Below, one piece after another: positions 34,548-59,264 of a stretch of 64,000 bases of DNA. The notes below the pieces were generated by a model. The model had not been told where the DNA came from, did not search any database, and saw nothing but the letters and a program-made list of their open reading frames with translations. The DNA comes from Streptomyces katrae. Lineage in GTDB: Bacteria > Actinomycetota > Actinomycetes > Streptomycetales > Streptomycetaceae. How positions within the stretch are numbered: the stretch's first letter is position 1; the number at the start of each line of letters is the position of its first letter. The DNA is taken from the NCBI RefSeq assembly GCF_002028425.1, contig NZ_CP020042.1, positions 5,803,560 through 5,867,559 of the forward strand, written 5' to 3'. The position numbers and the translations under genes were made by a program.

Positions 34548-34577
34548 GCACGCATGCACGACGGAGGGACGTACGGG

Positions 34578-37574: not shown

Positions 37575-37575
37575 C

Positions 37576-43104: not shown

Positions 43105-43113
43105 ACGCCAGTG

Positions 43114-43142
43114 CCCCGCGTCGGAGGTGATCCGGCGCGGGG
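43114..43142. terminator. Bidirectional terminator between the methylase and DUF397 genes
   Basis: A 12-bp stem with one wobble pair: CCCCGCG then TCGGA on the left, TCCGG then CGCGGGG on the right, with loop GGTGA. It lies 9 bp after the methylase stop, facing the convergent DUF397 stop. Confidence 0.75.
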
Positions 43143-43160
43143 TGGACGGAGGTGGCCGGG

Positions 43161-43343
43161 TCAGGCCTGAATCGCGTGTGAGACGAAACCACCCCACGCG
43201 GCGGGGGAGAGGGCGAGCTGCGGGCCCTGCTTGATCTTGGAGTCGCGGACGTGGATCGTCGGGGGGCAGACGGCGATCTCCACGCAGTCACCGGAGCCGC
43301 CACTGCTGTAGCTGGACTTGTTCCAAGAGGGCGACTTCAACAC
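43161..43343 (-). CDS. DUF397 protein, second half of a split tandem pair
   Basis: A 60-residue DUF397 domain: WNKSSYSSGGSGDCVEIA, then VCPPTIHVRDSK and a C-terminal AAWGGFVSHA, the normal order for the family. The only start is a GTG at 43343 within the preceding ORF, in another frame, without its own ribosome site. Typical streptomycete proteins carry a short DUF397 half fused in frame to a complete one, so this looks like the 3' half separated by a frameshift at about 43326-43331. DUF397 proteins pair with XRE regulators, possibly as their antagonists. Confidence 0.6.
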   Translation of the reverse strand: MLKSPSWNKSSYSSGGSGDCVEIAVCPPTIHVRDSKIKQGPQLALSPAAWGGFVSHAIQA

Positions 43344-43404
43344 AGGAGTCGCCAGAGCTACCGCTGTAGCTGCTCTTGAACCAGGCCAGTTCCGTGGTAC
43401 TCAT
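43288..43404 (-). CDS. Short DUF397 half-domain protein (frameshifted)
   Basis: A 38-residue product starting MSTTELAWFKSSYSGSSGD and CVEVAL, the classic beginning of tandem DUF397 proteins. It then runs into an unrelated tail (LEQVQLQQWRLR) before stopping. Removing one T from CTCTTGG (reading CTC TGG AAC) would join CVEVAL to WNKSSYSS of the following ORF, giving a continuous ~80-residue protein. It overlaps the XRE stop in an ATGA, so it is translationally coupled to that regulator. It may be a true mutation or a sequencing error. Confidence 0.5.
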   Translation of the reverse strand: MSTTELAWFKSSYSGSSGDSCVEVALLEQVQLQQWRLR

Positions 43405-44273
43405 GTTGCTCCTCGCATCTGCCGCAACAGGCTCACGGACTCTTCTTCGGAGAGAGCCTGTGACCGCATCCTGGCATATCGCAGCTGGAGCGTGCTGACC
43501 ACTTTGGGGTCGCAGATGAACTGGCCTCCTTCCTGTCCCTCGCAGTAGCCGAACCATCGGTTGGCGGAGGTCTCCAGCAGCTGCATTGGCCCGTCAAGCC
43601 CTGCGTGGCGCTCTCGCACTTGAGGCATCACTTGAATCTCGATGTTCCTGAGCTGCGTGAGGTCGAGGATGTGCTCGATGAGTGCTCGTGTGACGGCTGT
43701 CCCACCCGCACGCCTCAAGAAAAGGTGCTCTTCCAGGATGAAGCTATAGGCGGTATTTGGACGCTCGTGGAGCAGTCGCTGCCGCTTCAAGCGCGCAGCC
43801 AGGTGATCTTCGACCTCCTCGTCACTCAGCGGCGGAAGCCGGTGCTCGAACAACGTCCGCGCGTACCCCTCCGTCTGCAACAGCCCAGGGATCAAGCGGC
43901 ACTCGTACGTGTACAGCGTGACCGCCTCCGCTTCCAGCCGGGCCCACTTTCTGAACCAACTAGCCAGCCCCGGCTGTCGGGACAGATGCCGCGCTGCCTT
44001 CTTCAGCGCGCCCGTGTTGCCCAGTGCCGCCTCCGCCCGCTCCACGAACTCCGGGTCCGGCATGCGCCGGCCCTGCTCGCTCGACGCGACCGTGTGCTTT
44101 GAGAACCGCACCAGCGGGACGAAGTCCTCCCGGCTCAGCCCCGCGTGCTCGCGCAGCGCCTGGACCACCGCGCCGAACGTCCGCAGGCTGTCCGAGGAAT
44201 CCGGCTCACCTCCGCCCGGCGTCGGTCCGCCCGCGCACGGTTCCTCGTCCATGCCATCCATGTACTCGGCCAT
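43401..44273 (-). CDS. XRE-family regulator with DUF5753-type C-terminal domain
   Basis: A 290-residue regulator. The N-terminal XRE helix-turn-helix (~30-90) reads FGAVVQALREHAGLSREDF and VRFSKHTVASSEQGRR. The C-terminal domain (~110-285) has the streptomycete signature YECRLIPGLLQTEGYART, the LEEHLFLRRAGGT stretch and a terminal GQFICDPKVVSTLQLRYARMR, matching DUF5753 partners of DUF397 proteins. The ATG at 44273 is preceded by GGAGG; upstream in-frame codons lack one. It is divergent from a GHKL-ATPase gene across the perfect palindrome at 44365-44389, its likely operator. G+C at third positions is lower than in core genes. Confidence 0.85.
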   Translation of the reverse strand: MAEYMDGMDEEPCAGGPTPGGGEPDSSDSLRTFGAVVQALREHAGLSREDFVPLVRFSKHTVASSEQGRRMPDPEFVERAEAALGNTGALKKAARHLSRQPGLASWFRKWARLEAEAVTLYTYECRLIPGLLQTEGYARTLFEHRLPPLSDEEVEDHLAARLKRQRLLHERPNTAYSFILEEHLFLRRAGGTAVTRALIEHILDLTQLRNIEIQVMPQVRERHAGLDGPMQLLETSANRWFGYCEGQEGGQFICDPKVVSTLQLRYARMRSQALSEEESVSLLRQMRGAT

Positions 44274-44364
44274 CACCGGCCACCTCCGCGCCCGCCCACC
44301 TCGCGTCCCACACCCGACCCTTCTCATGGTCACGTTCGGTGACGCGTACTGTCCACCCGTTGTG

Positions 44365-44389
44365 CGCGTACGCTGACGCAGCGTACGCG
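44365..44389. promoter_or_regulatory. Perfect 11-bp-arm palindrome between the XRE and GHKL-ATPase genes
   Basis: Arms CGCGTACGCTG (44365-44375) and CAGCGTACGCG (44379-44389) flank ACG. It lies 92 bp upstream of the XRE start and 46 bp upstream of the ATPase start, in the only intergenic region of the regulatory module, so it is a strong operator candidate for the XRE protein. Confidence 0.6.
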
Positions 44390-44434
44390 GCGCATCCCTG
44401 GTGAAGCGGCCTTGGAACCCGCCAGATTGGCGCC

Positions 44435-44881
44435 ATGACACCTCCCCCCACCCGCCAAGGCGATGTCACCGTACGTGCGTTCGCCCAACGCTTCAGCTCC
44501 ACCCCGCTCGGCGCCCGCCTGGCCCGTCATCTCGCGCTCCATCAGCTGCACGGCTGGGGCATCCCGTACGGCTCGGAGGCCTCCGACATCACCGCCCAAC
44601 TCGTCGCCGAGCTGGCCGCCAACTCCGTGACGCACGGCCGGGTACCCGGCCGGGACTTCGAGCTGCGGCTCGCGCTCACCGACGGCACCCTCCGCGTCGA
44701 GGTCTCGGACACCCGTGGCGAGCGTCGGCCGCCCCACCCCCGCGAGCTCCCCGAGCCCCGGCCCCTCGCCGACTCGGGCCGCGGGTTGTTCCTCGTAGAG
44801 GCGCTGGCCGATCGGTGGGAGGTGCTGGACCGGGTACCCATCGGCAAGACCGTGCGGGCGGAGCTCGACCTGACGCGCTGA
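44435..44881 (+). CDS. Stand-alone GHKL ATPase (anti-sigma-factor/RsbW-like kinase fold)
   Basis: A 148-residue protein made of a single HATPase_c-like domain. N-box LVAELAANSVTHGRV, G1-like VSDTRGERRP and G2 DSGRGLFLVEAL are visible, so ATP binding is expected. There is no phosphoacceptor histidine or membrane segment. Streptomyces has many such proteins beside XRE-DUF397 pairs, in a conserved three-gene regulatory arrangement. It could be an anti-sigma factor kinase or a partner switch; its target is unknown. It lies 76 bp before the DUF262 gene on the same strand and may be transcribed with the downstream defence genes. Confidence 0.8.
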   Translation: MTPPPTRQGDVTVRAFAQRFSSTPLGARLARHLALHQLHGWGIPYGSEASDITAQLVAELAANSVTHGRVPGRDFELRLALTDGTLRVEVSDTRGERRPPHPRELPEPRPLADSGRGLFLVEALADRWEVLDRVPIGKTVRAELDLTR

Positions 44882-44957
44882 CCTCGCCACTCTCCTCCCG
44901 CCGTCTATAGGGTGACCGTGAAGGTCACGTACGGCGATACGAGGGCGACGGGGAGAC

Positions 44958-46262
44958 ATGGCCGATCTGGAGGACAGCGGCAGCGGACGGGCCGTCGGGC
45001 GGCGGAAGGCCGTGGGGTACGAGCGCTATCAGCCGCCCGCAGAGGATGGTGAGTTCCAGCCGGACGCGCTCTTCCTGCCCCTGGACAGCCCACTCGAAAT
45101 CGGCTCCGACGGACTCCCCACCGGAGTCGAGCTGGAGCAGTCCGCCGACGAGGAGGGCGATCCGAGAGCGGCGGAGGAATCCGATCCCGACGGCATCCGC
45201 GCCCCGTTCCGGCCCGAGAACATCAAGATCGAGACGCAGGCGACCACCGTCGATCTGCTGCTGTCCCGCCTGCGCGAGAAGATGATCGACCTGGCGCCGG
45301 ACTTCCAGCGCCGGGCCGGTATCTGGACCGACGTGCAGCAGAGCCGGCTCATCGAGTCCCTCCTACTGCGGATCCCGATCTCCTCCTTCCACATGGCGCA
45401 GGACGAGGACGACAACTGGGCCGTCGTGGACGGAATCCAGCGGCTCACCGCCATTGCCCGGTTCATGGCCCCCGAAGCCGTCGGAATGACCCCGCTCACC
45501 CTCCGCGGGCTCGACTATCTGCGGGACTTCCACGGCCACACCTACGAGGACCTCACCGGGCGCCTGCGCATCCGGCTCCGCGAGACCCAGCTCGTCGTGC
45601 ACATCATCCAGCAGGGCACGCCCGAGGCGGTCAAGTACAACGTCTTCTCGCGGATCAACACGGGCGGAATGCCGCTCAAGCCGCAGGAGATCCGGCACGC
45701 CATGGTGAAGGGCCCGGCCCGGACCTTCCTGGCCGATCTCGCCGAGGACGCGGCCTTCGGTGACGCCACCGGCTGGAGCGTCTCCAACGAGCGGATGGCC
45801 GACCGGGAGATGGTGCTGCGCTTCATGGCCTTCCGGCTGTCCAACCCGTTCGAGCACACGCAGCGGGACTTCGACCAGTTCCTTGTGAACGCCATGCACG
45901 GCATCAACCGGCTGACCGAGGAGGACCGCGAGGCGCACGCACGGGAGTTCCGGGAGGCGATGAAATGCGCCACCGGCCTCTTCGGCGAACACGCCTTCCG
46001 GAAGTGGAAGGGCGCCAAGGCCAAATCACCCATCAACAAGGCCCTTTTCGAAGCGGTCGCGGTGAATCTCGCCGACTTGAGTGATCATGAGCGTGATGTG
46101 CTGGTAGCGTCCCGTAACACGGTCCTCACCGGCTTCTTCGAGCTGATGAAGGACTGGGACTTCGACCGTTCCATCTCCATCGCCACCGGCGACCCGAAGA
46201 AGGTACGGACGCGGTTCGGCGAGATGGCGAAGCTCTACCGGGGGGTAGTGGACAGTGCTTGA
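44958..46262 (+). CDS. DUF262 (GmrS/ParB-like fold) protein
   Basis: A 434-residue protein. The N-terminal ~80 residues are acidic and disordered. The DUF262 domain (~85-320) has LAPDFQRRAGIWTDVQQSRLIESLLL, here seen in two parts, and the family hallmark DGIQRLTAI (DGQQRLT type) followed by NVFSRINTGGMPLKPQEIRHAM. DUF262 proteins are NTP-dependent subunits of defence nucleases such as GmrSD. This one has no C-terminal DUF1524/HNH nuclease half, so a separate protein would have to provide cleavage. It overlaps the ATPase gene by 8 nt. It is the first gene of the five-gene set to 57587. Confidence 0.85.
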   Translation: MADLEDSGSGRAVGRRKAVGYERYQPPAEDGEFQPDALFLPLDSPLEIGSDGLPTGVELEQSADEEGDPRAAEESDPDGIRAPFRPENIKIETQATTVDLLLSRLREKMIDLAPDFQRRAGIWTDVQQSRLIESLLLRIPISSFHMAQDEDDNWAVVDGIQRLTAIARFMAPEAVGMTPLTLRGLDYLRDFHGHTYEDLTGRLRIRLRETQLVVHIIQQGTPEAVKYNVFSRINTGGMPLKPQEIRHAMVKGPARTFLADLAEDAAFGDATGWSVSNERMADREMVLRFMAFRLSNPFEHTQRDFDQFLVNAMHGINRLTEEDREAHAREFREAMKCATGLFGEHAFRKWKGAKAKSPINKALFEAVAVNLADLSDHERDVLVASRNTVLTGFFELMKDWDFDRSISIATGDPKKVRTRFGEMAKLYRGVVDSA

Positions 46263-47445
46263 CCGGCTGACGCTGGCGAACTACAAGGCCTTTCAGCACG
46301 CGGAGCTGCCGCTCGGCCCGCTTACGCTGCTGACCGGGCTGAACTCCTCCGGCAAGAGCAGCGTCCTGCAAGCGCTCGCCCTCCTCCACCAGTCGTACAC
46401 GGCCGGGGATCTCGACCACGCGGGAGAGCTGGCGCTGGAAGGCGCCGTGGGGCGCCTCGAAGCCCCGCACGAGAACGGCTTCCTGCTCAACGGCGAGCTC
46501 GTCGGACTCGGCACCGGGCAGGACGTCCTGCACGAGGAATTCACCGGGGACGAGCCGGAGATCACCCTGGCCGTGGGCGAGGGACCGTACCGGTACTCGT
46601 GGACGGTCGGGTACGAGCCCGAGCAGAACCTGCTGCCCCTAACCGCGGTGGACCTGCCGCTGACCACCGAGGGGTACGGGAGCCGGCCGAGCGGGGACGC
46701 GGCTGTGTTTCCGCGGTACTTCACCGCCGGATTCCAGTACCTGCACGCAGACCGGATCTCACCCGCCGAGTTCTATCCGCGCGACCACCACGCGGTCGTC
46801 GGGCGCGGGTTCCTCGGCGTACGCGGCGAGCACACCGTCAACTTCCTGCGCCACCACGCCCGGGACGAGGTGCCCGAGGGGCCGCTGCGCCACCCCAAGG
46901 CCGCCTCAGCGCTGCTGCTGGACCAGGCCGCCGCCTGGATGGGCGAGCTGTGCCCGGGGGTGGACATCGAGGCGGCGGCGATCGAGGGCACCGACTCGGT
47001 ACAGCTGTCGTACGGGTTCACGGGCGCGCTCGGCGCCAGCCGCCGCCGGCGTCCGACGAACGTCGGCTTCGGCCTCACCTACGCCCTGCCGATCGTGGTG
47101 GCCTGCCTGACGGCCCGGCCCGGCTCGCTGATCCTGCTGGAGAACCCGGAGGCCCATCTGCACCCGCAGGGGCAGACGCGGATGGCCGCGCTCGCGGCGG
47201 CGGCCGCCGCGCAGGGGGCGCAGCTGATCGTGGAGACGCACAGCGACCACGTGATCAACGGGGTGCGGCTCGCGGTCAAGCAGGGGCGGCTGGCACCGGA
47301 CCAGGTGGTCCTGCACTACTTCCGCGGCGACGGTACGGGAGTCGGCTTCGTCACCCCGCGGGTGGACGAGGACGGACTGCTCGACCAGTGGCCCGAGGGC
47401 TTCTTCGACGAGCTGGAGAACACGCTCGACCAGCTGCTCGGCTGA
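46255..47445 (+). CDS. AAA/ABC-type ATPase with DUF3696 C-terminus
   Basis: A 396-residue ATPase of the RecF/OLD-like P-loop group. Walker A is GLNSSGKSS (28-36), and the Walker B region is ILLENPEAHLHPQGQ (~292-306), followed by the D-loop-like IVETHSDHVINGVR. The C-terminus LHYFRGDG with LDQWPEGFFDE is the DUF3696 signature. No TOPRIM domain is attached, so it is not a complete OLD nuclease. It is probably the motor or sensor of a complex with the DUF262 protein and/or the following unknown protein. The GTG at 46255 lies within the DUF262 gene's last codons, so the two are translationally coupled. Confidence 0.85.
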   Translation: MLDRLTLANYKAFQHAELPLGPLTLLTGLNSSGKSSVLQALALLHQSYTAGDLDHAGELALEGAVGRLEAPHENGFLLNGELVGLGTGQDVLHEEFTGDEPEITLAVGEGPYRYSWTVGYEPEQNLLPLTAVDLPLTTEGYGSRPSGDAAVFPRYFTAGFQYLHADRISPAEFYPRDHHAVVGRGFLGVRGEHTVNFLRHHARDEVPEGPLRHPKAASALLLDQAAAWMGELCPGVDIEAAAIEGTDSVQLSYGFTGALGASRRRRPTNVGFGLTYALPIVVACLTARPGSLILLENPEAHLHPQGQTRMAALAAAAAAQGAQLIVETHSDHVINGVRLAVKQGRLAPDQVVLHYFRGDGTGVGFVTPRVDEDGLLDQWPEGFFDELENTLDQLLG

Positions 47446-47449
47446 ACAG

Positions 47450-47474
47450 CGAGCCCGGGGGTGGGCCCGGCTCG
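47450..47474 (+). repeat. Hairpin between the DUF3696 ATPase and the 313-aa gene
   Basis: Arms CGAGCC (47450-47455) and GGCTCG (47469-47474) with inner GGG/CCC pairing, located between the ATPase stop and the ribosome site (GCGGAGGGGGAAA) of the next gene. It could attenuate or adjust expression within the operon. Confidence 0.4.
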
Positions 47475-47497
47475 TCACACATCGCGGAGGGGGAAAC

Positions 47498-48439
47498 GTG
47501 CCGCTGCTGTTCCTGAACGACACCTCATGCGGGACCGGATGCGACCCGGCCCGGGCCGACCGGGCCATGACGGAGCTGGCGAAGACCGTGCTGACCGTCG
47601 TAGCGGCCGACCGGCCGGGCACCAGGCTGGTCAGCAAGGAGCCGCTGAACAGCGTGCACATCGCCGCCGGTCATCCCATCGGCAAGTGGTACGGCCAGCC
47701 GCGCAACCGTGACGCCTGGTTGCGGATGCTCAAGATGCAGACCTCCTCCCCGTTCAAGACGGTGTTTCCCGAAGGGGAGTCCTTCGCGGACGTCGAGTAC
47801 CGCCACCAGGGCGTCCCGGTGGAGGGACTGGGAGCGGCCCACCTGATGGGTGGTGTGGGAGTCTCCCTCCCCGTGGATCCCCGGTGGGATGCCGACCGAC
47901 TGACCTTGGAGCGGGAGCAGCTCACCGAGGACGGCGGCGCCTCGGAGATCAGTGAGGCGGAGATCCGGCACGCCTCGTCCCCAAGCCACCTCGACGGGCA
48001 TCTGAAGTGGATCGAGGCCCGGGTCGCCGGGATCCGCCGGTCCGGTCTCGACCAGGTGCGCCGGGGCGCCGAGCTGTGGGAGCGGCGCGAGACGTTCTTC
48101 CCCCACCTCCAGTGGCTTCCCCGTGTCGAGCAGGACCTCCGGGATCTGCCGGAGGTGTGGGTCAAGCCGGTGCGTGAGCGGCTCTTCGAGCTGGAGGAAG
48201 CCGCGGCCGAGTGGGACCCGGTCACTCGCCCCATCGCGCCCCAGTGGCGATCGTACGTACGCCAGGAGTTCGAAGCGCGCCGTCGGTTCTGCTGGTTCCC
48301 CGATCTGGACGGCACGCAGCAGCTCTTCGACTGGCACTCGGAGTTCCTGCCGAAGCCCGGCCGGCTGCATTTCCGGCTGGTGCCGGAGGCGGCAACTGTG
48401 CGGGTGGCGTACGCCGGCCGGAAGCGCGGCATCGCCTGA
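47498..48439 (+). CDS. Unrecognised 313-aa defence-island protein
   Basis: I do not recognise this family. The GTG at 47498 has a strong ribosome site and normal codon use, so it is a real gene. The N-terminus MPLLFLNDTSCGTGCDPA is a hydrophobic strand followed by two cysteines (C11, C15). A helical region with NRDAWLRMLKM and SPFKTVFPEGESF follows, then GLGAAHLMGGVGVSLPVD (~110-127), a charged middle, and a C-terminal LHFRLVPEAATVRVAYAGRK that looks like the end of a small barrel or RelE-like strand pair. No membrane segment is present. Placed between an ATPase lacking a nuclease domain and a helicase-nuclease, it may be the effector or a DNA-binding subunit; that is only inference. Confidence 0.6.
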   Translation: MPLLFLNDTSCGTGCDPARADRAMTELAKTVLTVVAADRPGTRLVSKEPLNSVHIAAGHPIGKWYGQPRNRDAWLRMLKMQTSSPFKTVFPEGESFADVEYRHQGVPVEGLGAAHLMGGVGVSLPVDPRWDADRLTLEREQLTEDGGASEISEAEIRHASSPSHLDGHLKWIEARVAGIRRSGLDQVRRGAELWERRETFFPHLQWLPRVEQDLRDLPEVWVKPVRERLFELEEAAAEWDPVTRPIAPQWRSYVRQEFEARRRFCWFPDLDGTQQLFDWHSEFLPKPGRLHFRLVPEAATVRVAYAGRKRGIA

Positions 48440-48482
48440 AGCCCCGAGCCGCCGGGCGGGCCCCCGAAACCGCAGGTAGAAC

Positions 48483-48506
48483 CCGCCGCGCCTAGGGGTG
48501 CGGCGG
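48483..48506 (+). repeat. Hairpin in the 149-bp gap before the giant helicase gene
   Basis: Perfect 7-bp arms CCGCCGC (48483-48489) and GCGGCGG (48500-48506) with a 10-nt loop. A TAnnnT-like TACCGT follows shortly after, so the gap may contain a terminator and a second promoter. Confidence 0.35.
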
Positions 48507-48588
48507 ATGCCCCGGATACCGTAGGCGTGTGGCCCGGCCACGATCAGTGCCACCGGGACGACAGCACGCAGCAGCAAGGAGGACCGCG

Positions 48589-51500
48589 GTGCGACCGACT
48601 CTCGCCGCCGAGCAGGTACGGGGCAGTCTGAGCCAGTACCTGGCGACGACGTACGCGCTGGCGGACGAAGGCACCCGGCGGGCGCTGGAGAGCTTCCTCG
48701 GCGACCCGGACGACGGGATCTTCCGCGGGCCGTACCTGCGCATCCGCACGCCCTTCCGGTCGGCGGCGAACGACGACTGGCAGCGGCACCTTCAGTGGTG
48801 GCCGAGGGGTTTCCGCCCGCACCGGCACCAGGAGCAGGCATGGGAGCGGCTCTCCACCCTGCACGGCCCGGCCCGGCCCACGCTGGTGACCACGGGTACC
48901 GGCTCCGGCAAGACAGAGTCCTTCTTGGTGCCGCTGCTCGACCACTGCCGCCGGGAGCGCGCGGCCGGGCGGGAGGGCGTGAAAGCCGTCCTGCTGTACC
49001 CGATGAACGCGCTCGCCACCGACCAGGCGCACCGCATCAACGACTACCTGGCCGACGAGAAGGACGCCCGGCTGAGGGAGGCCGGTGTACAGGCCGCCCT
49101 GTATGTGGGCGACAAGCCCTCGCGGGAGTTCAAGCAGGCCAACCCGCGGATCGTGGTCGAGCGGGACGAGATCCGGCGGACCCGGCCGGACATCCTGATC
49201 ACCAATTACAAGATGCTGGACCTGCTGCTCCAGCGGCCCGAGGACCACCGGCTGTGGCAGGGCTCCGCCCTCGCCTATGTGGTACTGGACGAGTTCCACA
49301 CGTACGACGGCGCCCAGGGCACGGATGTGGCGATGCTGCTGCGGCGCCTCGGGGCGGTAGCGGGGCTGAACGAGCCCGGGCGCCCGCTCGGGCCGGTCTG
49401 CCCCGTCGCGACCTCGGCCACCCTCGGCGAGAACGGAGCCGGCGGCGCTGAGCGCACTGCCATGCTCGACGTTGCCGAACAGGTCTTCGGGGTCCCCTTC
49501 ACGCTGGACGCCGTCATCGCCGAGGACCGGCGCACTGCCCAGGAGTTCGCCGGGGAATCCGACTTCACGCTGCCGTTCCCCGCTCCGCACGACGTGGTCG
49601 CGCTCGGCGACCCCACGCGGGACCCGCACGCGATGGACCAGCTCGTCTCCGCCTTCACGGGGGAGGCCGGGCTCTCGCCTGCGGAACTCGGGGCGCGGCT
49701 GCGGCGGCACCGGCTCACCGCCGCGGTGCTGGAGATCCTCGACGGCAGCCCGAAGACCCTCGCCGAAGTGATGGAGATCCTGCCGAGGTACGCCTACCAC
49801 TGGGGCATGGCTGCGCAGCGGCAGCCCACCGTGGCCGCCCAGGCGCTCGCCCGCTACGTCGCACTCCTGTCCGTCGCCCGCGACCCCGAAGATCCGCGGC
49901 GCCCCCTGCTGTCCATCGAGGTGCACCACTGGGTGCGCTCCGTCTCACGGGTGCTGCGCGGCATCAGCGGGGCGCGGGCCGAGTTCCGCTGGGACGACGA
50001 AAGGGTGACCTCTGCCGGGAAGCTTGCCCGCACATCGGGAGAGAGCGGCGGCGCTGCGGACGACGAGGCGCCCGCACCCGCCGACGACAGCGCTCCACCG
50101 CCGGCCCAGGTGTTCCTCCCGGCCGTCTTCTGCCGCGAGTGCGGGAAGTCCGGCTGGGCCGCGTTCTCACCGGAGGCCGACCCGGCCGAACTCGACCTGA
50201 ACGCGGCGAAGATCCGGCGTGCCTCGGTCGGGCGGGACAAGCGCCGGGTCCGCAATATGATCGCGGCCAGTGGGCAGCAGGCGCACGAAGCCGCCTTCGC
50301 CCAGGAGAAGCCGCGCGGCGGGCCGACCGTGATGGTGCTGGACGGCGTCAGCGGGCGGCTGCGGCCGCTCTCACCCGAGAAGGATTTCGAGGAGCCTGTC
50401 GAGGAAGGCGGGCCGCGCCCGGCGAAGGCCCTGCACAACGCGGCGTTCGTGGTCACCGATCTCGGCAGCGACCGGGCCGCCCAGGGCGATCAGTGTCCCG
50501 CCTGCCGGACCTTCAACTCGATCCGCTACCTCGGTACCGGCCTCGCCGCGCTCGCGGCGGCCTCGATCACCCAGCTGTTCACCGGCGGGGAACTGGACAA
50601 GAACCTCAAGGAGAACAAGACGCTCCTGTTCAGCGACTCGGTCCAGGACGCCGCCCACCGCGCCGGCTACGTCGCCAGCCGCTCGTACACCTTCTCCTTC
50701 CGCTCGCTCCTGGCCAGCCGCATCGACGAAGAGCAGTCCATCGCGCTGAGCGATCTCGCGGCGGACCTCATCGCCGACGTTGTCGACAGCAGTGCCGTGC
50801 GGGCTGCCGTCATCCCGCCGGACCTGCACGTCTTCAAGGGTGTCGACACCCTGCTCGCGGGGCGCAGCCGCGGCTCGCGGGCCACGTGGGAGCTCATCGC
50901 GCAGCGGCTGGCGTTCGCGGCCGTCATGGAGTTCGGCCTCAGATCCCGGCAGGGCCGCACCTTGGAGCTGACCCGGACCGTGGCGGCGGATGTCCCGCTG
51001 GAGGACCCGGACGCGGTCGCCGACCTGGTACGGGAACTGCTGCACACCACCCCCGGTGAGATCGCGCTGCCGGACGGCTCCGTGCCCGGCCCGGACCAGT
51101 TCGTCGGCTACGTACGAGGGCTCCTGGAGCGCCTGCGCACCCGGGGCGCGATCCGGCATGCCTGGCTGGACCCGTGGATCGACCAGGCGGGAGTACGCCG
51201 CTGGCCGGTCTGGGGCGGACGCACACCCGGCATGCCCGCCTTCCCGCCCGGGGTGTCGGCTCCGTCCTTCCTGCTGGGCAGCCCCAAGCAGGGCAGCGAG
51301 GACTTCGACGTCCTGACCGGACGGCTCGGGTGGTACCAGGACTGGACACGGCGCGCACTGGGCCTGCGGCCCGACGCCGCGAACGATTTCCTCGTGCGCC
51401 TGCTGCCTTCGCTTGCCGAGGCCGGCGTCCTGTCGGCGCGCACCGCCCAGGACGGTGCCACACGCGTCTACGGCCTCCAGCCCGGCCACATCCAGGTCCG

Positions 51501-54500
51501 CAAGCTCTCCGACGACGCCGTGGCCGACGCGACCGCGCGCTGCCCGGTCTGCTCCTGGGAGCAGACCATCGACCCGGAGCTCGCCGACCACTGGCACGCC
51601 CAGCCCTGTCCCCGCTACCGTTGCGGAGGACACCTGCGCACCGGGCGAGACATCGAAAGCGGCGTACGCCAAAGGGACTTCACCGACGACTTCTACCGGC
51701 GGATGTACCGGGATGCCGGCGTCTTCACCATCAACACCGCCGAGCACACCGGCACCCTCGACAGGCCCAAGCGCGAGGCCGTCGAGAAGGCCTTCCGCGA
51801 CGGCATCGACGTCCACTACGCCAATCCGCAGGTGCTCTCCTGCACTCCGACCCTCGAACTCGGCATCGACATCGGCGACCTGTCGGCCGTCGTCCTCGCC
51901 TCGCTGCCCAAGGGTCCGGCCAACTACGCCCAGCGGGTCGGCCGGGCCGGCCGCTCCACGGGCAACGCCTACCTGCTCACCATGGTCGACCGCGGCCCCC
52001 GGGACCGTTACTACCTCGACGACCCGCGGCAGATGATCGCCGGAGACATCCAGCCGCCGGGCTGCTACCTGTCCGCCGTGGAGATCCTGCGCCGCCAGTA
52101 CCTCGCTCATCTGCTCGACCTGGCCGCCGCCGGGCGGCTGACCCTGCCCGGAGGCGGTGCGGCGGTACCGGTCCTCCCGCTGCCTCACCAGGCCACCCAG
52201 CTCTTCGGCCAGAGCGCCTGGCTCTCGGAATTCACGGCGGCCGCTCTGGACGGAGGAGCGCGTCTCGTCGAGGAGTTCCTGGAGCTCTTCCCGCCCCACG
52301 ACGAGGCACGCGGGACGGGCGTGAGCCCGCAGGCCGCCGACGCGCTGCGCACCTACGCCACGTCGGGCATCGCGGGGAAGCTCGACGAGGCCCGTGAGCA
52401 GTGGGAGAGCCGCCGACGCGAAATGCAGCGCCGGGTCGACGCGATCGACAAGGCCCACGGCCTGCTCGTCGCCGGCGACCCCGAGCACGAGCGGCAGGGA
52501 CGCGAACTGCGCGCCGAACGGCGAGCGGTGACACGTCGCTCGGCCGAGATCAGCCGCGGCACCGCGCACGGTGCCCTCGTGGACCTCGGCCTGCTGCCCA
52601 ACTACAGCCTGGTCGACACGCCGACCGAGCTGGAGGCCACCCTCAGCTGGACCGAGAAGGGCGAAGGCGGGCCCGACGCATACGAGAGCCGGGTGCTGAG
52701 GTACGAGCGGCCTGCGCGCCTCGCCCTGACGGATTTCGCCCCCGGCAACCACTACTACGTCCAGGGCTACAAGCACCGGATCACCGGCGTCGACATCGGC
52801 AGCGCCCGCCGCCCGGCGTGGCTGTGGTGGCGGATCTGCCCCGACTGCGGGCACGCGCGCACGCACCAGGCACAGCAGGACTCCAGCGCCTGCCCGCGCT
52901 GCGCCTCGCCCGCCATCGGGGACGTCGGCTGCCTGCACCGGGTACTGGTCCCGCACCGGGTCCACTCGCGCGACCAGCGTGACGACGTACGGGTCCGGGA
53001 CGACTCGGACGAGCGCGAGCGCCGCCACTACACCGTCGTTCCGGCGGTCGACATCCCGCGGGACGCGATCGATCAGGCCTGGAAGCACAAGCAGGCGACT
53101 TTCGGCTGGGAGTTCACCCGGCAGGCGGTCATCCGCCACCTCAACGTGGGAGCGAGCCGGGCCGAGAACGGGCCCGACGACGCCTTCGCCGGGCGCCGCG
53201 TACGACTCAACCCCTTCTGGGTGTGCGAGTCCTGCGGCTACGCCGACCCGGACGGCGGCCCGGTGGCGGACCACGACGCCCTCGTCCCCGTGAAGGCCTC
53301 GAAGTACCACCGGCCGTGGTGCCCCCGGCTGCGCGACGGGCTGTCCGAGAGCGATCCGCAGCAGCAGGGCGTGAAGATCCTGCTCGCCCACGAGCTGCGC
53401 ACCGAGGCACTGCGCATCCTCATCCCCGCCGTCACCGCACACACCCAGGAGCGGCTGGCCTCCTTCAAGGCCGTCCTGCTGGCCGGTATCGCCCGCAGCT
53501 ACGGGGGAGACCCCGACCACTTGTCGATCGTCGCCGACTCCATGCCTGACGCGGGCAACATCGACGGCGACACGCGCCGCCACTTCCTCGTGCTGTTCGA
53601 CACCCTTCCCGGCGGTACGGGGTACCTGGACCGCCTCGCGGGCGGTGACGGCCTGCGCGAGGTGCTCACGCGGGCCCGTCAGGTCATCGAGAGCTGCGTA
53701 TGCCGGGCCGAGGGCCGGCCGGCGTGCCACCGCTGCCTGTTGCGGTACGTCGCTGACAGCGAATACGAGCTGGTGTCCCGGGAACACGCCCTCGACATGC
53801 TGGGCGAACTACTCGGCCAGGCCGGCGAGGCCTGGAGCGCCGAGCCGGTCGGCACTACTCAGGACATCACGCTCGTCCACCAGGTGGAGAGCGAACTGGA
53901 AGCGCTCTTCCGTCGCGGGCTGCTGGAATGGGCGGAGAAGGCCGACGAGGTCAGCGTACGGACGGCGATCACGCCGGACGGCGAGCACGACACGACGCTG
54001 CGGTTCACCGCACCCGACGGCACGGTCGAGGGCTGGCGGATGGAGACCCAGCCCGATCTCGGCTTCACGCGACCGGATGTCGTCTTCCGCAGCCTCGACG
54101 ACGAGCGGCGGAGGGTGGCGGTCTACCTCGACGGCTACCGCTACCATGCGAGCCCGGAGTGCAACCGGATCGCGGATGACGCGGTGAAGCGGACCAGGCT
54201 GCGGTCCGAGCTCGGATGGCAGGTCTTCCAGCTCACCTGGGACGACGTCCAGGCGTGGACGGGACAGCGCCGGGCGCCCGCCGACCCGGTGTGGATGCCC
54301 TACCAGAACACGGCGCAGAAGACGGCCATGGACGTGCACCGCCGGATGCACGGCGGTGACACCCGCGACCTGACGCGGTTCGTCTGGGTCAATCCCGTGG
54401 AGACGCTGGTCGGCTACCTGACCACCCCGGAAGCCGATCTCTGGCGACGGCGCGCCCAGAGCGCGCTTGCCGGTTTCGCCGCGGTGTCCGCGACCAGCAG

Positions 54501-55338
54501 GGCCCTCGCGGACGGCTCCGGAATCGGGGAGAAGATCGGCGAGGCGTTGGGCGGCCGGAGGCTGTCCGGCGGCCAGGGCGCCGTGCAGGTGATGGCCACC
54601 AAGGACGCCGGCGGCTGCCCACTGGTGATCGCCCTCGACCTGCGCAAGGGGCAGACAGCCGCCGTCTGGACGGCACTGACCGTGCTCGACGACCGGCCGG
54701 CCACCATCGAGGCGGACGAGAAGACACACCGCCGGCGCTGGCAGGCCTGGCTGTACTGGACGAACCTGTTGCAGTTCCTCAACGAGGGCGAGGGCGACGG
54801 CGTACAGCTGGCCGGAAGCGCACTGCCCGGCTTTGCACCGATGGAGCTGGCGGTGACGGGCGGCGCCGGCTGGCTCACCTCGCAGCGCCGGGCCCATGAG
54901 CCGGCCGGGACCGGTGGGGAGACGGTCGGCGGCGAATCACCGGCCGGCGACGCCGCAGCGGTGGTACGGGATCCGGCCTGGGACGAGGTCATCGCCTACC
55001 TGGTCGACGACCCTGGACTGCCGGAGCTCGCCGGGGCGCTGGCCGATCTCGGCGTCCCCGTTCCGCAGGCCGGATTCGAACTGGGAGCCGCGGCCTGGCC
55101 GGCCGAACTGGCCTGGCCCGCCCACCGCATCGGCGTCGTCCTGGCCCACCAGCCCGATTCCGACGGCACACCTGACCAGGACGCGCTGGAACGCGACCGG
55201 GCCTACGCACAGGCGGGCTGGATGGTGCGACCTGCGACGGCCTGGACGGCAGAGGAGCTGGCGCAGGCCTTGGCCGGCTCACCCGACGGGTCACATCAAC
55301 AGCCGAACGAGCGCCACGACGAGGAGAACGACCGATGA
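48589..55338 (+). CDS. Giant DEAD/DEAH helicase with zinc ribbons, DUF1998 and a Vsr/DUF559-like nuclease domain
   Basis: 2249 residues. The helicase lobes have Walker A TGTGSGKTES (~100-110), DEFH (~232), VATSATLG, and lobe 2 TLELGIDIGDLS to QRVGRAGRS (~1089-1125). Cysteine pairs CRECG (~514), CPAC (~634), CPVC/CPRYRCGG (~984-1014) and CPDCG/CPRC (~1416-1440) suggest zinc ribbons. DUF1998 ends in CVCRAEGRPACHRCL (~1702-1716). Next, RPDVVF and VAVYLDGYRYH with GWQVFQLTWDDV (~1823-1885) look like a Vsr/DUF559-type PD-(D/E)xK nuclease. The last ~130 residues weakly repeat that pattern. The start GTG 48589 follows AAGGAGG. DruE and fused DrmA-DrmB are the nearest architectures known to me. Confidence 0.82.
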   Translation: MRPTLAAEQVRGSLSQYLATTYALADEGTRRALESFLGDPDDGIFRGPYLRIRTPFRSAANDDWQRHLQWWPRGFRPHRHQEQAWERLSTLHGPARPTLVTTGTGSGKTESFLVPLLDHCRRERAAGREGVKAVLLYPMNALATDQAHRINDYLADEKDARLREAGVQAALYVGDKPSREFKQANPRIVVERDEIRRTRPDILITNYKMLDLLLQRPEDHRLWQGSALAYVVLDEFHTYDGAQGTDVAMLLRRLGAVAGLNEPGRPLGPVCPVATSATLGENGAGGAERTAMLDVAEQVFGVPFTLDAVIAEDRRTAQEFAGESDFTLPFPAPHDVVALGDPTRDPHAMDQLVSAFTGEAGLSPAELGARLRRHRLTAAVLEILDGSPKTLAEVMEILPRYAYHWGMAAQRQPTVAAQALARYVALLSVARDPEDPRRPLLSIEVHHWVRSVSRVLRGISGARAEFRWDDERVTSAGKLARTSGESGGAADDEAPAPADDSAPPPAQVFLPAVFCRECGKSGWAAFSPEADPAELDLNAAKIRRASVGRDKRRVRNMIAASGQQAHEAAFAQEKPRGGPTVMVLDGVSGRLRPLSPEKDFEEPVEEGGPRPAKALHNAAFVVTDLGSDRAAQGDQCPACRTFNSIRYLGTGLAALAAASITQLFTGGELDKNLKENKTLLFSDSVQDAAHRAGYVASRSYTFSFRSLLASRIDEEQSIALSDLAADLIADVVDSSAVRAAVIPPDLHVFKGVDTLLAGRSRGSRATWELIAQRLAFAAVMEFGLRSRQGRTLELTRTVAADVPLEDPDAVADLVRELLHTTPGEIALPDGSVPGPDQFVGYVRGLLERLRTRGAIRHAWLDPWIDQAGVRRWPVWGGRTPGMPAFPPGVSAPSFLLGSPKQGSEDFDVLTGRLGWYQDWTRRALGLRPDAANDFLVRLLPSLAEAGVLSARTAQDGATRVYGLQPGHIQVRKLSDDAVADATARCPVCSWEQTIDPELADHWHAQPCPRYRCGGHLRTGRDIESGVRQRDFTDDFYRRMYRDAGVFTINTAEHTGTLDRPKREAVEKAFRDGIDVHYANPQVLSCTPTLELGIDIGDLSAVVLASLPKGPANYAQRVGRAGRSTGNAYLLTMVDRGPRDRYYLDDPRQMIAGDIQPPGCYLSAVEILRRQYLAHLLDLAAAGRLTLPGGGAAVPVLPLPHQATQLFGQSAWLSEFTAAALDGGARLVEEFLELFPPHDEARGTGVSPQAADALRTYATSGIAGKLDEAREQWESRRREMQRRVDAIDKAHGLLVAGDPEHERQGRELRAERRAVTRRSAEISRGTAHGALVDLGLLPNYSLVDTPTELEATLSWTEKGEGGPDAYESRVLRYERPARLALTDFAPGNHYYVQGYKHRITGVDIGSARRPAWLWWRICPDCGHARTHQAQQDSSACPRCASPAIGDVGCLHRVLVPHRVHSRDQRDDVRVRDDSDERERRHYTVVPAVDIPRDAIDQAWKHKQATFGWEFTRQAVIRHLNVGASRAENGPDDAFAGRRVRLNPFWVCESCGYADPDGGPVADHDALVPVKASKYHRPWCPRLRDGLSESDPQQQGVKILLAHELRTEALRILIPAVTAHTQERLASFKAVLLAGIARSYGGDPDHLSIVADSMPDAGNIDGDTRRHFLVLFDTLPGGTGYLDRLAGGDGLREVLTRARQVIESCVCRAEGRPACHRCLLRYVADSEYELVSREHALDMLGELLGQAGEAWSAEPVGTTQDITLVHQVESELEALFRRGLLEWAEKADEVSVRTAITPDGEHDTTLRFTAPDGTVEGWRMETQPDLGFTRPDVVFRSLDDERRRVAVYLDGYRYHASPECNRIADDAVKRTRLRSELGWQVFQLTWDDVQAWTGQRRAPADPVWMPYQNTAQKTAMDVHRRMHGGDTRDLTRFVWVNPVETLVGYLTTPEADLWRRRAQSALAGFAAVSATSRALADGSGIGEKIGEALGGRRLSGGQGAVQVMATKDAGGCPLVIALDLRKGQTAAVWTALTVLDDRPATIEADEKTHRRRWQAWLYWTNLLQFLNEGEGDGVQLAGSALPGFAPMELAVTGGAGWLTSQRRAHEPAGTGGETVGGESPAGDAAAVVRDPAWDEVIAYLVDDPGLPELAGALADLGVPVPQAGFELGAAAWPAELAWPAHRIGVVLAHQPDSDGTPDQDALERDRAYAQAGWMVRPATAWTAEELAQALAGSPDGSHQQPNERHDEENDR

Positions 55339-57587
55339 CCGGCACCACGCCCACCGCGGGCGCCACCCTGCGCCTGTTGGACAAGGCGGACAAGGAGATC
55401 GTCCGGCTGGACCGGGCGATCGTCGGAGCGGTCTACAAATTCCTGCACGACTTCCGCAGGAATCCCGAGTCCGGCGGTTTCGACCTCAAGCCACTGAAGG
55501 GCGACCGCCGGCTGTGGTCCGCCCGCGTCAACCGCGAGTACCGGGCGCTGCTCCTGCACCTCGGGGGTAACGACTGGCTGCTCGTCTCGGTCAAGCACCG
55601 CGGGCACGTCCACCAGAACCTGGACCGACTGGCCTACGGCATCAACCAAATCACGGGCGCCATCGAGTACGTCGACCTTCAGGTGGTCGAGGACGACGTG
55701 CTGCGGCGGGCGCCCGAGACGCCGCAGGCGTCCACGCCCACGACCGCCGCGCCCGTACCCGCCGAAGAGCCCCTGTTCGGCCGGTACAGCGATGAACAGC
55801 TGGCCGGTCTCGGTGTCACCGAGCCGCTCATTCCGCTCATCCGCAAGCTGACCACGGACGACGAGCTCCTCGGACTCGCCGAGTACGCCCCGCGCCACAC
55901 CAGCGAGGTGCTCCTGCGGCTGCGCGATGGCGTCCCGTACGACGAGGTCAGGACGCAGGTCACCGAACCGGTCGAGCTCGACGAGAGCGAGCGGTTCGAC
56001 GCCGGTGACTGGCAGGCGGCGATCGACCGTTCCCAGGCCGTGGTCATCACGGACGACGACTCGCTGCAGAGCATCCTGGACGAAGGCGACTTCGGGCGGT
56101 GGAAGGTCTTCCTGCATCCCACGCAGGAGAAGCTCGTGCACCGCAGGTACTCCGGCCCCGCCCGGGTCGGCGGCGGGCCCGGGACGGGCAAGACGATCGT
56201 CGCCCTGCACCGGGTCCGGCACCTGGTCGAAAGCCTTCCCCCCGGCCACACCAAGCCGGTCCTCCTCACCACGTTCAACAAGAATCTGGCCGCCGACCTG
56301 AGGGCGCGGCTGCTCTCGCTCGCCGGTCCCGAGACCCTGGCACGCGTGGACATCGTCCACGTTGACCAACTGGCCACCCGCGTCGTCAGCGAGGCCGATC
56401 CGGGCAGCGCCAAGCGTCGGATCGACGACACCCAAGCCCTGCGCGAGTGGCGCCAACTCCTGCTGGAAGCCGGCGAGCACAAGTGGGACGCCGAGTTCCT
56501 CAGCGACGAGTGGAACCAGGTGATCCTGGGCCAGGCCGTGGCCACGCGCACCGAGTACTTCCGCGCCCGCCGGGCCGGCCGGGGCCGCAGCGTGTCGCGG
56601 ACCGACCGGGCGGAGATCTGGCAGCTCGCCGAACGCTTCACGCAGAGGCTGGACGTCAAGGGGCTGGAGACGCACCGGCAGGTCGCCGAACGGGCGGCCC
56701 GGCTGGAGATCACGCGCAAGTCCAAGATCGACAAGCGGGCGCAGGAACAGGACGACCGCGGTGGACTGCCCAATCTCCACGTCGAATCCGGTTCCGGGGC
56801 CTGGCTGCGCTACCGCTACCGGCACGTCGTCGTCGACGAAGCGCAGGATCTCAGTGCCGCCCACTGGAAGATGCTGCGCGCGATGGTGCCCTCGGAACCC
56901 GATGACATCTTCCTCGTCGGCGACACCCACCAGAGGATCTACGACAACCAGGTCACCCTCGGCAGCCTGGGCATCAACATCCGTGGCCGCTCGACCAAGC
57001 TGACGCTCAGCTACCGCACGACGAGAGAGATCCTGAAGTCCGCCATCCACGTCCTGGACGCCACCGAGTACGACGATCTCGACGGCGGTGGCGACGATCT
57101 GGCTGGCTACCGGTCGGTCCTCCACGGGGTCCGGCCCCAGCTGCGCGGAGCCGCCAGCTGGGACGAGGAGCTCGATCTCATCGTGCAGCAACTCCAGGCC
57201 TGGCACGACATCCCCCGTGAATCCGTAGCGATCTGCGTCCCGACGAACGACATGGTCACGCAGGTCGCCTACCGGCTCGCCCAGCGTGGCATCGCATCCA
57301 CGGAGATCACCCGCGACGGTCCTAAGCGGGACGAAGGTGTGCACATCGGCACCATGTACCGGTTCAAGGGCCTGGAATACCGGCGGATGCTCATCGCAGG
57401 TGTCTCCGAGGGACTCGTCCCGCGGTCCTCGGTCGATGCGTGGGAGCGAACCGACAGCGCACGGCACAAACGTGAGGTGCAGCGGGCGCGATCCCTGCTC
57501 TTCGTCGCGACGACGCGTGCCCGCGACGCTCTCACCATCACCTGGAACGGAGAACCCAGCCGTTTTCTGCGCCCTCTCGGCGTCTGA
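55335..57587 (+). CDS. UvrD/Rep-family helicase fused to an N-terminal ParE/RelE-like domain
   Basis: 750 residues. The first ~95 residues (KFLHDFRRNPESGGFDLKPL, then RLWSARVNREYRALL and VSVKHRGHVH) have the strand-helix pattern of RelE/ParE toxins, including the basic residues typical of the fold. The rest is an SF1A helicase: Walker A GGGPGTGKTIVALHR (~278-292), motif II VVVDEAQDLS (~498-507), QRIYD, TLSYRTTREI, HIGTMYRFKGLEYRRML and LLFVATTRARDAL (~723-735). It starts in an ATGA overlap with the giant helicase gene, so the two are coupled. This toxin-like/UvrD fusion may use the ParE-like part as a protein- or RNA-binding module; toxicity is not shown. Confidence 0.82.
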   Translation: MTGTTPTAGATLRLLDKADKEIVRLDRAIVGAVYKFLHDFRRNPESGGFDLKPLKGDRRLWSARVNREYRALLLHLGGNDWLLVSVKHRGHVHQNLDRLAYGINQITGAIEYVDLQVVEDDVLRRAPETPQASTPTTAAPVPAEEPLFGRYSDEQLAGLGVTEPLIPLIRKLTTDDELLGLAEYAPRHTSEVLLRLRDGVPYDEVRTQVTEPVELDESERFDAGDWQAAIDRSQAVVITDDDSLQSILDEGDFGRWKVFLHPTQEKLVHRRYSGPARVGGGPGTGKTIVALHRVRHLVESLPPGHTKPVLLTTFNKNLAADLRARLLSLAGPETLARVDIVHVDQLATRVVSEADPGSAKRRIDDTQALREWRQLLLEAGEHKWDAEFLSDEWNQVILGQAVATRTEYFRARRAGRGRSVSRTDRAEIWQLAERFTQRLDVKGLETHRQVAERAARLEITRKSKIDKRAQEQDDRGGLPNLHVESGSGAWLRYRYRHVVVDEAQDLSAAHWKMLRAMVPSEPDDIFLVGDTHQRIYDNQVTLGSLGINIRGRSTKLTLSYRTTREILKSAIHVLDATEYDDLDGGGDDLAGYRSVLHGVRPQLRGAASWDEELDLIVQQLQAWHDIPRESVAICVPTNDMVTQVAYRLAQRGIASTEITRDGPKRDEGVHIGTMYRFKGLEYRRMLIAGVSEGLVPRSSVDAWERTDSARHKREVQRARSLLFVATTRARDALTITWNGEPSRFLRPLGV

Positions 57588-57608
57588 CGAAGCGTTCAAA
57601 GGCCAATG

Positions 57609-57679
57609 GCCGTGATCGTCCCGAGCCGTCCGGCGGTCGTTTTCAGCCGAGTAGCTTCGTCACTGTCTGCGATCACGGC
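57609..57679. repeat. Inverted repeat upstream of jetA
   Basis: Perfect 10-bp arms GCCGTGATCG (57609-57618) and CGATCACGGC (57670-57679) separated by 51 bp, filling the 114-bp gap between the UvrD-fusion gene and jetA. It could be a paired operator or the base of a terminator structure. Confidence 0.45.
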
Positions 57680-57701
57680 TGATGCGTGACAATGGCCCGC
57701 G

Positions 57702-59264
57702 ATGACTGTCACCACCAGCACCCCGGAGCCCCGACCGGACGGGTACGGCCCCTTCGCCCACCTCACCGTCCAGAACACGGCTCTCTACCGGCATGTGATG
57801 CGGGTGTTCGTCGTCGCCAAGGAGCGGTTCGCGGTGCACCTGCGGCCCGAGGACGTGCATGCCGCTCTGCCGGGCGAGGTGCGGCCCGCCGAGCTGGATG
57901 CCGTGGTCAAGGCGCTGGACAGTCTCGTCGGCTGGGGGAATCTGCGCGCCGATCCCGATACCGCCCGCGTCACCGCCGTCGAGGACTTCTACCGGAAGCG
58001 GTTCATCTACCAGCTCACCCGGGCCGGAGAAGCCGCTGAGGAAGCCCTGGGCGTCTACGACGAGGCGCTCGGGCGGCGCGGCGCCCTGCAGGCCATCGCC
58101 CTGCACGACATCGTCACCCAGCTGCGGGCCCTGCTCGTGCTGGCAGCCGAGGAACAGCCGGATCAGGCCAAAACGCACCTGGCGCTTGATGCGCTGGCGA
58201 GTCGGTTCACCGCTCTTGCCGACAACGCCGGCGCCTTCATGGGGTCCCTGCAACGGACCATCGACCTCCACGACGTCGAGGAAGAGGTCTTCCTCGCCTA
58301 CAAGGACCAGCTCATCCAGTACCTGGAGAGGTTCATCCAGGACCTGATCACCCTCGGCGGGCGCATCGCCCGGCTCATCGTGGAACTGGAAGAGGGCGGG
58401 AGCATCGGGCCGCTGCTGCGGGCGGCCGCACGGCGTGAGGCCGCCGACGCGTCGCCGGAGGAGGCGGGGCACGCCGAGCGGGAGGCGTACGAGCGGTGGG
58501 CGGGGCGCTGGTCCGGGCTCGCCGCGTGGTTCATCAGCCGGGAAGGGCGGGAGTCGCAGGCCCGGCTGCTGCGTGGGCGGGCCCTCGGCGCGATTCCGCA
58601 GCTCCTGGCCGTCGTACGGTCGCTGAACGAGCGCAGGGCCGGGCGTTCCGACCGGTCCGCCGACTTCCGTACCCTCGCCCGCTGGTTCGCCGAGGCCCCC
58701 GACGACGACTCCCGGCACCGCCTCTGGCGCGCCGCCTTCGGGCTCTACCCCGCGCGGCACCTCACCGTGGACGCCGAGACCCTGGCCGCCCGTACGGCCC
58801 GGCCGGTTCCCGCCGCGACGTCGTGGGCGGCGGCGGAGCCGCTGCGGATCAGCCCCCAGCTGCGCCGCACGGGCAGTTACGAGCGGCGTGGCAAGCCCCG
58901 CAGGGTCGAGGACCGGGAGGAGCCGCGCCGCAGGCTCGCCGAGGTGGCCGCCAAGCAGGCCGCCGAGACGGCGGCGGCCCGCGCCCGGCTCGTCACCGGC
59001 GGGATCACCCGGCTCTCCGGGCTCGGCGAACTCGACCCCGTGTCCTTCGGGCTGTTCCTCCAGCTGCTGGGCGACGCGCTGGCCACCTGGCGGCCGGGCA
59101 TGCGGCATACCGTGGCCACCAGCAACGACGGCTCCATGGAGATCCGGCTCAGCGCGGTCGCCGACGGCGGCACCGCGGAGATCCGGACCCCCGGGGGTGT
59201 CTTCCGCGGCCCCGACCACCTCATCGAGATCGTCGACCTGACGGAAGGAGGCGGCGGCCGATGA
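57702..59264 (+). CDS. jetA: Wadjet JetA-type protein (TIGR02677/DUF2397)
   Basis: A 520-residue kleisin-like subunit of a Wadjet/MksF-type SMC complex that recognises and cleaves closed circular DNA (plasmids). The start region PFAHLTVQNTALYRHVMRVF and GWGNLRADPD give winged-helix-like N-terminal parts; a long helical middle (~110-330) and C-terminal LATWRPGMRHTVATSNDGSM complete the DUF2397 family pattern. No catalytic residues are expected. The ATG at 57702 lacks a good ribosome site. It overlaps jetB by ATGA. By DUF content this is the type II arrangement as I recall the classification. Confidence 0.85.
   Translation: MTVTTSTPEPRPDGYGPFAHLTVQNTALYRHVMRVFVVAKERFAVHLRPEDVHAALPGEVRPAELDAVVKALDSLVGWGNLRADPDTARVTAVEDFYRKRFIYQLTRAGEAAEEALGVYDEALGRRGALQAIALHDIVTQLRALLVLAAEEQPDQAKTHLALDALASRFTALADNAGAFMGSLQRTIDLHDVEEEVFLAYKDQLIQYLERFIQDLITLGGRIARLIVELEEGGSIGPLLRAAARREAADASPEEAGHAEREAYERWAGRWSGLAAWFISREGRESQARLLRGRALGAIPQLLAVVRSLNERRAGRSDRSADFRTLARWFAEAPDDDSRHRLWRAAFGLYPARHLTVDAETLAARTARPVPAATSWAAAEPLRISPQLRRTGSYERRGKPRRVEDREEPRRRLAEVAAKQAAETAAARARLVTGGITRLSGLGELDPVSFGLFLQLLGDALATWRPGMRHTVATSNDGSMEIRLSAVADGGTAEIRTPGGVFRGPDHLIEIVDLTEGGGGR

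Follow-up and report, generated by a model that had tools for sequence, protein, structure and literature searches.

Within a 64,000-nucleotide stretch of Streptomyces katrae (contig NZ_CP020042.1, positions 5,803,560 to 5,867,559; hereafter the window), defense genes lie close together in what is probably one ARMADA II operon (a kinase gene, armA and armB, then armC and armD), with a cargo slot between armB and armC that is occupied by a divergent regulatory cassette and by nsnABC, a complete Menshen system (Table 1). An earlier note, made from the letters alone, had proposed the five genes from nsnA to armD as a new defense system. All five plus-strand open reading frames (ORFs) are present at the coordinates it gave, each with coding-type GC (guanine plus cytosine) content by codon position, and the 8-nucleotide overlap, the ATGA overlap and the 52-bp gap between them are exact. 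The remaining gap, given as 149 bp, is correct if armC begins at the in-frame GTG at 48589, and is 89 bp if it begins at the GTG at 48529; we favor the former start, since E. coli ArmC aligns by BLAST from window residue 23 onward.

Table 1. Genes and candidate control region of the ARMADA-Menshen locus, in window coordinates
Feature	Position	Strand	Description
Hanks-type Ser/Thr kinase gene	33133-34389	+	directly before armA; Pfam Pkinase E 1e-40
armA	34554-37574	+	SNF2/BrxHII-like helicase; 33% identity to E. coli ATCC 8739 ArmA, residues 13-986
armB	37576-43104	+	PglX/type IIG-like DNA methyltransferase; 30-33% identity to E. coli ArmB, two segments
bldB-like DUF397 gene	43161-43343	-	60 amino acids (aa); Pfam DUF397 E 9e-19
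whiJ-like regulator	43401-44273	-	290 aa, start predicted; DUF5753 E 5e-48, HTH_31 E 7e-11
divergent promoter region, candidate operator	44274-44434	.	three GCGTAC repeats: 44344, 44366, 44381
abaA-like HATPase gene	44435-44881	+	148 aa; Pfam HATPase_c_2 E 1e-13
nsnA	44958-46262	+	DUF262/GmrSD_N, Menshen; PADLOC NsnA E 2.2e-128; DGIQR motif at residue 158
nsnB	46255-47445	+	OLD-like ATPase, DUF3696; PADLOC NsnB E 3.5e-114
nsnC	47498-48439	+	313 aa; PADLOC NsnC E 1.2e-101; residues ~200-313 predicted RelE-like toxin fold
armC	48529 (or 48589)-55338	+	YprA-like helicase, MZB/DUF1998, putative C-terminal Vsr-like nuclease domain
armD	55335-57587	+	N-terminal RelE-like domain and UvrD/GajB-like helicase

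The arm genes match those of Escherichia coli ATCC 8739 one to one and in the same order, armA-B-C-D, broken in the window by the slot between armB and armC. ArmC shares 29% identity with its E. coli counterpart over residues 23-1908, and ArmD 33% over its full length. In E. coli all four ARMADA genes are required, and the protection they confer is non-abortive (PMC12458937, Bell et al. 2025). The motif residues mutated in that study are conserved in eight of eight cases, in the window and in up to 20 aligned relatives per protein: K150 and D250 of ArmA align with E. coli K136 and D236, G668 and N1169 of ArmB (NPPW at 1169) with G605 and N971, K128 and D254 of ArmC with K110 and D234, and K286 and D501 of ArmD with K266 and D454, of which G605A and D454N caused a partial loss only. 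A profile built from 27 ArmD N-termini matched the RelE protein of T. thermophilus (2khe, E 3.7e-4), while the ArmC nuclease region gave a weak match to MTES_1575 (E 1e-3, under the cut-off) and carries an RPD...LDG...H pattern common to E. coli ArmC and its relatives. The likeness to ARMADA II, as described in PMC12458937, thus covers gene order, domains, the RelE-like ArmD N-terminus and the eight mutated residues, whereas the regulatory cassette and Menshen between armB and armC, and the kinase gene before armA, set the window apart; the words kinase, Menshen and Wadjet are absent from the main text of that paper.

Druantia was considered for ArmC and rejected. Parts of armC and armD match DruE-like and GajB-like PADLOC models, the best PADLOC profile for ArmC is DruE3 (E 2e-92), and ArmC, a YprA-family helicase, is a relative of DruE; however, it scores 639 bits against E. 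coli ArmC and 123 bits against the neighboring DruE, and its partners are ArmA, ArmB and ArmD. No other Dru protein is found among the PADLOC matches listed for the window genes scanned.

The three genes upstream of armC match, nearly over their full length, the PADLOC models NsnA, NsnB and NsnC (all with E 1e-101 or better), whose names we take to be those of the Menshen subunits, and they lie adjacent and in order. NsnB has a Walker A motif at residue 28 and the motif LENPEAHLHP at 295. The C-terminus of NsnC (residues ~200-313) is predicted to adopt a RelE-like fold, and a paper on Menshen domain polymorphism may already describe this end of the protein. Sequence homology between the NsnC tail and the ArmD N-terminus was rejected (hhalign probability 0.1%). 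NsnC also looks like a mosaic, in that the identities of its N- and C-terminal parts disagree between loci, as if the toxin-like end had been exchanged. Menshen has been described as a DUF262 gene together with a predicted OLD nuclease (PMC10952713). The present locus resembles it in its three full-length adjacent subunits (DUF262 protein, OLD-like ATPase and NsnC, in this order), and differs in that they sit within another defense operon, behind a WhiJ/AbaA-type cassette.

Most of the domain assignments in the earlier note were borne out by Pfam. The first protein is a DUF262 subunit without its HNH half (GmrSD_N at E 4e-20; none of the five genes gives a DUF1524 (HNH) match at E 0.1), on which ground GmrSD type IV restriction was rejected; the second is an OLD-like ATPase with AAA_15/AAA_21 and DUF3696 matches and no TOPRIM match. 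The giant helicase (DEAD, Helicase_C and MZB) has a putative nuclease domain, with the weak, Vsr-like MTES_1575 match, and the superfamily 1 helicase (UvrD) a toxin-like N-terminus, with weak ParE_like and YoeB matches under the curated cut-offs. The 313-aa protein, which had been called unrecognized, is the one that matches NsnC. The statement that no described system has this set of genes fails against Menshen (PADLOC models) and ARMADA II (PMC12458937), and because the nsn models, the E. coli Arm matches and the motif residues all fit, we read the proposed unit as Menshen joined to armC and armD, the distal half of ARMADA. Nor does the unit start at 44958, since the kinase gene, armA and armB (33133-43104), packed on the same strand, and the three-gene regulatory cassette precede it; a boundary there omits armA and armB, half of ARMADA.

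The slot recurs in one clade of the family. We searched 297 Streptomycetaceae genomes with ArmD and NsnC, and found ArmD (E <= 1e-170) in 48, nearly full-length in 46 and partial in G141 and G257, and NsnC (E <= 1e-15) in 21, of which 16 fall among the 48 ArmD genomes, versus 3.4 expected (p 2e-10, the relatedness of the genomes being ignored). DNA around 42 ArmD loci besides the window was retrieved and the window genes were mapped onto these loci; G022, G220, G180, G010, G141 and the weaker ArmD matches stand outside the slot counts, and G128, which has an NsnC match, was left out of the locus comparison. An ArmD tree of 42 rows (the window plus 41, excluding the partial ArmD of G257) consists of two clades. 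In the clade of 19 rows, armB and armC abut in 15 loci (the compact loci), and there is no gap between them in E. coli ATCC 8739 either; G014 and G238 have cargo between the two genes, and G005 and G273, with fragments of armB or armC only, were placed in no group. The clade of 23 rows (the split clade) includes the window, and here armB and armC lie 4.3-22.6 kb apart in all 20 loci that have both genes, G067, G125 and G136 not being among these bounded loci because armB is absent from the retrieved DNA.

What fills the slot varies. Menshen (nsnABC) is present in 11 of the 20 slots, and also in G136, where armB is off the contig; in the window's own subclade, subclade A, it is in the slot in eight of eight loci. 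HEC-01A homologues were counted in 11 slots (one as a 141-aa fragment) and HEC-01B in nine, these counts being based on protein clusters with one representative of each scanned, and a caspase-helicase with EACC1 in three. The slot of G176 additionally holds DrmA, DrmB and UvrD-like genes (DISARM-like). Seven further slot proteins were scanned, six without a PADLOC match and one with a TPR match. Proteins without a PADLOC match lie in the slots of G283, G276, G060, G077, G268 and G056 (e.g. of 1178, 659, 566 and 510 aa, as well as one of 393 aa before nsnA in G056), and are candidates for undescribed defense genes. A second locus in G268 (G268:C13, G268n) has another armB, DUF397-XRE genes and nsnABC with no armC within the 60 kb retrieved, and is either a partial ARMADA or a remnant of one.

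Nesting of one defense in another has precedent: TgvAB is embedded in a type I restriction-modification operon (PMC11411939), and the same paper points to Payne et al. 2024 for genes that lie within Hma clusters. The slot is like these cases in that a full module lies between the genes of another system, and HEC-01 bears the HEC name of the Hma-embedded genes. It differs from what is described there in that the host is ARMADA and the guest Menshen, in that a developmental-type regulatory trio is also in the slot, and in that host and guest have moved jointly.

This joint movement is seen in the descent of the genes. A tree of NsnA and NsnB groups the eight loci of subclade A compatibly with the ArmD tree, and nsnA and armC distances are correlated (r 0.94, p 4e-4, in the eight loci; 0.88 in twelve), also when rpoB is taken into account (0.93, p 4e-4, in the eight). 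Neither gene follows rpoB: the two r values are 0.01 and 0.00 in the eight loci, and 0.19 and 0.07, not significant, in the twelve. Since nsn distances match those of arm but not those of rpoB, ARMADA has moved as one block with the Menshen it contains. Purely vertical descent of this block is contradicted by the rpoB test, in which the subclade A hosts do not form one clade (approximately unbiased test, p 6e-42). Between NsnC and ArmC the fit is looser in the six closest loci (r 0.37, p 0.09). In the sister subclade, the slot's Menshen copies are intermixed with free ones, with four changes between linked and free on the tree, and because the linked/free label is no more clustered than in shuffles (181 of 500 were as low), repeated exchange of Menshen is likely there.

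The DUF397, XRE-DUF5753 and HATPase genes that open the slot stand side by side, all above the Pfam cut-off, the first two on the minus strand and the HATPase gene on the plus strand. Among the 20 slots, 17 contain a DUF397 match (it is missing in G196, G015 and G268), versus 0.43 expected from the density in the window's genome, where 21 matches over 8.06 Mb include 17 separate DUF397 genes. Genes of these three kinds cluster in Streptomyces as BldB/WhiJ/AbaA paralogues, and one such regulator, WhiJ9, binds to direct repeats between divergent genes, and iosA activation depends on it when bldB is mutated (PMC10294661). The window cassette shares with the clusters described there the grouping of the three genes and the repeats in the divergent region, and differs in lying inside a defense operon, its DNA binding and regulation being putative. 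The divergent region is conserved in a ten-locus alignment, with the GCGTAC repeats clearest in eight loci. Directly upstream of the full DUF397 copy lies a partial second one (43287-43389, minus strand) in another frame; three other DUF397 genes in the genome likewise have a similar partial copy ahead of them, in frame there. GC content is ~0.60-0.64 over 43250-43850, in the cassette, compared with 0.72 for the window, which would fit slot content that arrived separately. The nsnC-armC gap (48440-48588) contains the element TACCGTAG at 48517, its single occurrence in the window; matches resembling TWACCGTAGG lie upstream of armC in 8 of the 34 loci searched, with near matches by eye in others, and the element is possibly a promoter or operator of armC.

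At the other end of the operon, the kinase before armA retains its catalytic motifs (HRDLKPQN from residue 150, DFG at 169), and a homologue lies directly before armA in 31 of 31 testable loci, namely the window, 16 of 16 further loci (G238 and 15 members of the split clade) and 14 of 14 compact loci, all with the relevant stretch retrieved; loci in which armA is truncated by the end of the stretch, e.g. G144, G176, G276 and G014, were not counted. No kinase is found among the annotated genes of the E. coli ATCC 8739 ARMADA island. Ser/Thr kinases of this type are numerous in Streptomyces genomes, and the link of the kinase to ARMADA therefore rests on position.

Flanking genes were compared against the window only, and the counterparts found, other than kinases, were jetA behind armD in G125 and a TrmA-like gene behind armD in G156. 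The TrmA-like gene lies in the window at 31297-32628, just upstream of the kinase gene, and its 84% identical counterpart in G156 just downstream of armD, a hint of a common insertion neighborhood. Directly after armD, the window has a complete Wadjet type II system (JetA2, JetB2, JetC2, JetD2) from 57702 to 64000 and on to G000:C1:5869408; besides the jetA of G125, there are jetABC genes close to the nsnABC genes and armC remnants of G255 and G257.

By comparison of sequences, we established the identity and order of the genes, their intact motifs, their recurrence and the shared descent of nsn and arm, and four readings can be weighed on this basis. That the five genes form a single new defense system, as the earlier note proposed, we consider highly improbable. 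They are tightly packed and they do recur, in eight of eight loci of the window's ArmD subclade (with other cargo between nsnC and armC in G176). In a one-genome-per-species scan with one peptide pattern, which gave 20 NsnC loci (L153 and L155 are probably the same genomes as G176 and G056), armC-armD follow nsnABC directly in ten, armC follows other cargo in two and an armC fragment is present in one. However, armA and armB, which are essential in E. coli ARMADA (PMC12458937), lie outside the proposed set, and both findings that the earlier note had named as refuting its proposal were made: all five genes are covered by two systems already named, and the two parts also occur apart. The 15 compact loci have arm without nsn, nsnABC is without an arm gene in five of the seven fetched loci with NsnC away from full-length ArmD, and seven of the 20 scanned loci are likewise without one, absence being judged within the retrieved DNA.

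The slot might, at the other extreme, be a hitchhiking hotspot, filled by chance recombination within a defense island with no shared control or function. The great diversity of cargo, including the proteins without a PADLOC match, speaks for this, as do the intermixing of linked and free Menshen outside subclade A and the abundance in the genome of regulatory genes of the cassette type; yet all 20 bounded loci have the slot in an identical position, the trio, judged by its DUF397 gene, is in most of them, and subclade A keeps the same cargo though its hosts are not a clade, so that we find a mere hotspot doubtful. Slightly less probable to us, and on balance unlikely, is that nsnABC and armABCD are now one cooperating system in subclade A, neither half fully functional alone, with Menshen acting, for example, as sensor and toxin for the split ARMADA. 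The unbroken association in subclade A, the congruent descent and joint transfer of nsn and arm, the nsnC-armC gap of ~40-160 bp in most subclade A loci and the lack of a plus-strand terminator-like site within 43100-57750 would be expected of such a system. Congruent trees are expected from close linkage alone, though, and nsnABC persists beside mere armC remnants (G255, G257, L150) and elsewhere without arm genes; the arm genes, for their part, function without nsn in E. coli (PMC12458937) and lack it in the compact loci, the sister subclade has other cargo in Menshen's place, and other genes separate nsnC from armC in G176. We favor two autonomous, layered defenses under shared control, and keep cooperation as a live rival.

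In the layered arrangement, ARMADA would be the first line of defense, in which methylation by ArmB marks host DNA and the helicases ArmA and ArmC act on phage DNA that is unmarked or abnormal. This DNA would be cut by the Vsr-type domain of ArmC, while ArmD would contribute a helicase-RelE module, the whole perhaps gated by the kinase. Menshen would be an autonomous second line that blocks translation: NsnA (a DUF262 NTPase) and NsnB (an ATPase) may detect infection and release NsnC, whose RelE-like end would then cut mRNA at the ribosome. Bound to the GCGTAC repeats, the WhiJ-like protein could switch transcription of the HATPase gene, of nsnABC and possibly of armCD. Taking this further, we propose, tentatively and as a possibility rather than a probability, that Streptomyces ARMADA II is a modular platform, i.e. 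a kinase-gated helicase-methylase chassis with a cargo slot for interchangeable effectors (Menshen, HEC-01, caspase-helicase), co-expressed with armCD from a WhiJ/BldB-type switch, in which chassis and cargo cooperate and spread as one unit.

Menshen and ARMADA are both published, and defense-in-defense nesting has been described (PMC11411939); the armB-armC slot, the regulatory trio, the exchangeable cargo, the block transfer and the upstream kinase were not found in the literature searched, which extended neither to Payne et al. 2024 nor to the supplements of Bell et al. What looks new is the architecture, a slot inside ARMADA with regulators and exchangeable cargo. The tempting call of a new system is thereby corrected, and in its place stands a specific, testable arrangement: a conserved cargo slot in an experimentally validated defense operon, together with a regulator of developmental type and a kinase that is likewise conserved. 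The contents of the slot in other genomes are good candidates for new defense genes. If the cargo does cooperate with ARMADA, this would offer a reason, beyond mere clustering, why some defense systems nest, and if the platform reading is true, phage defense in Streptomyces would be tied to the developmental program.

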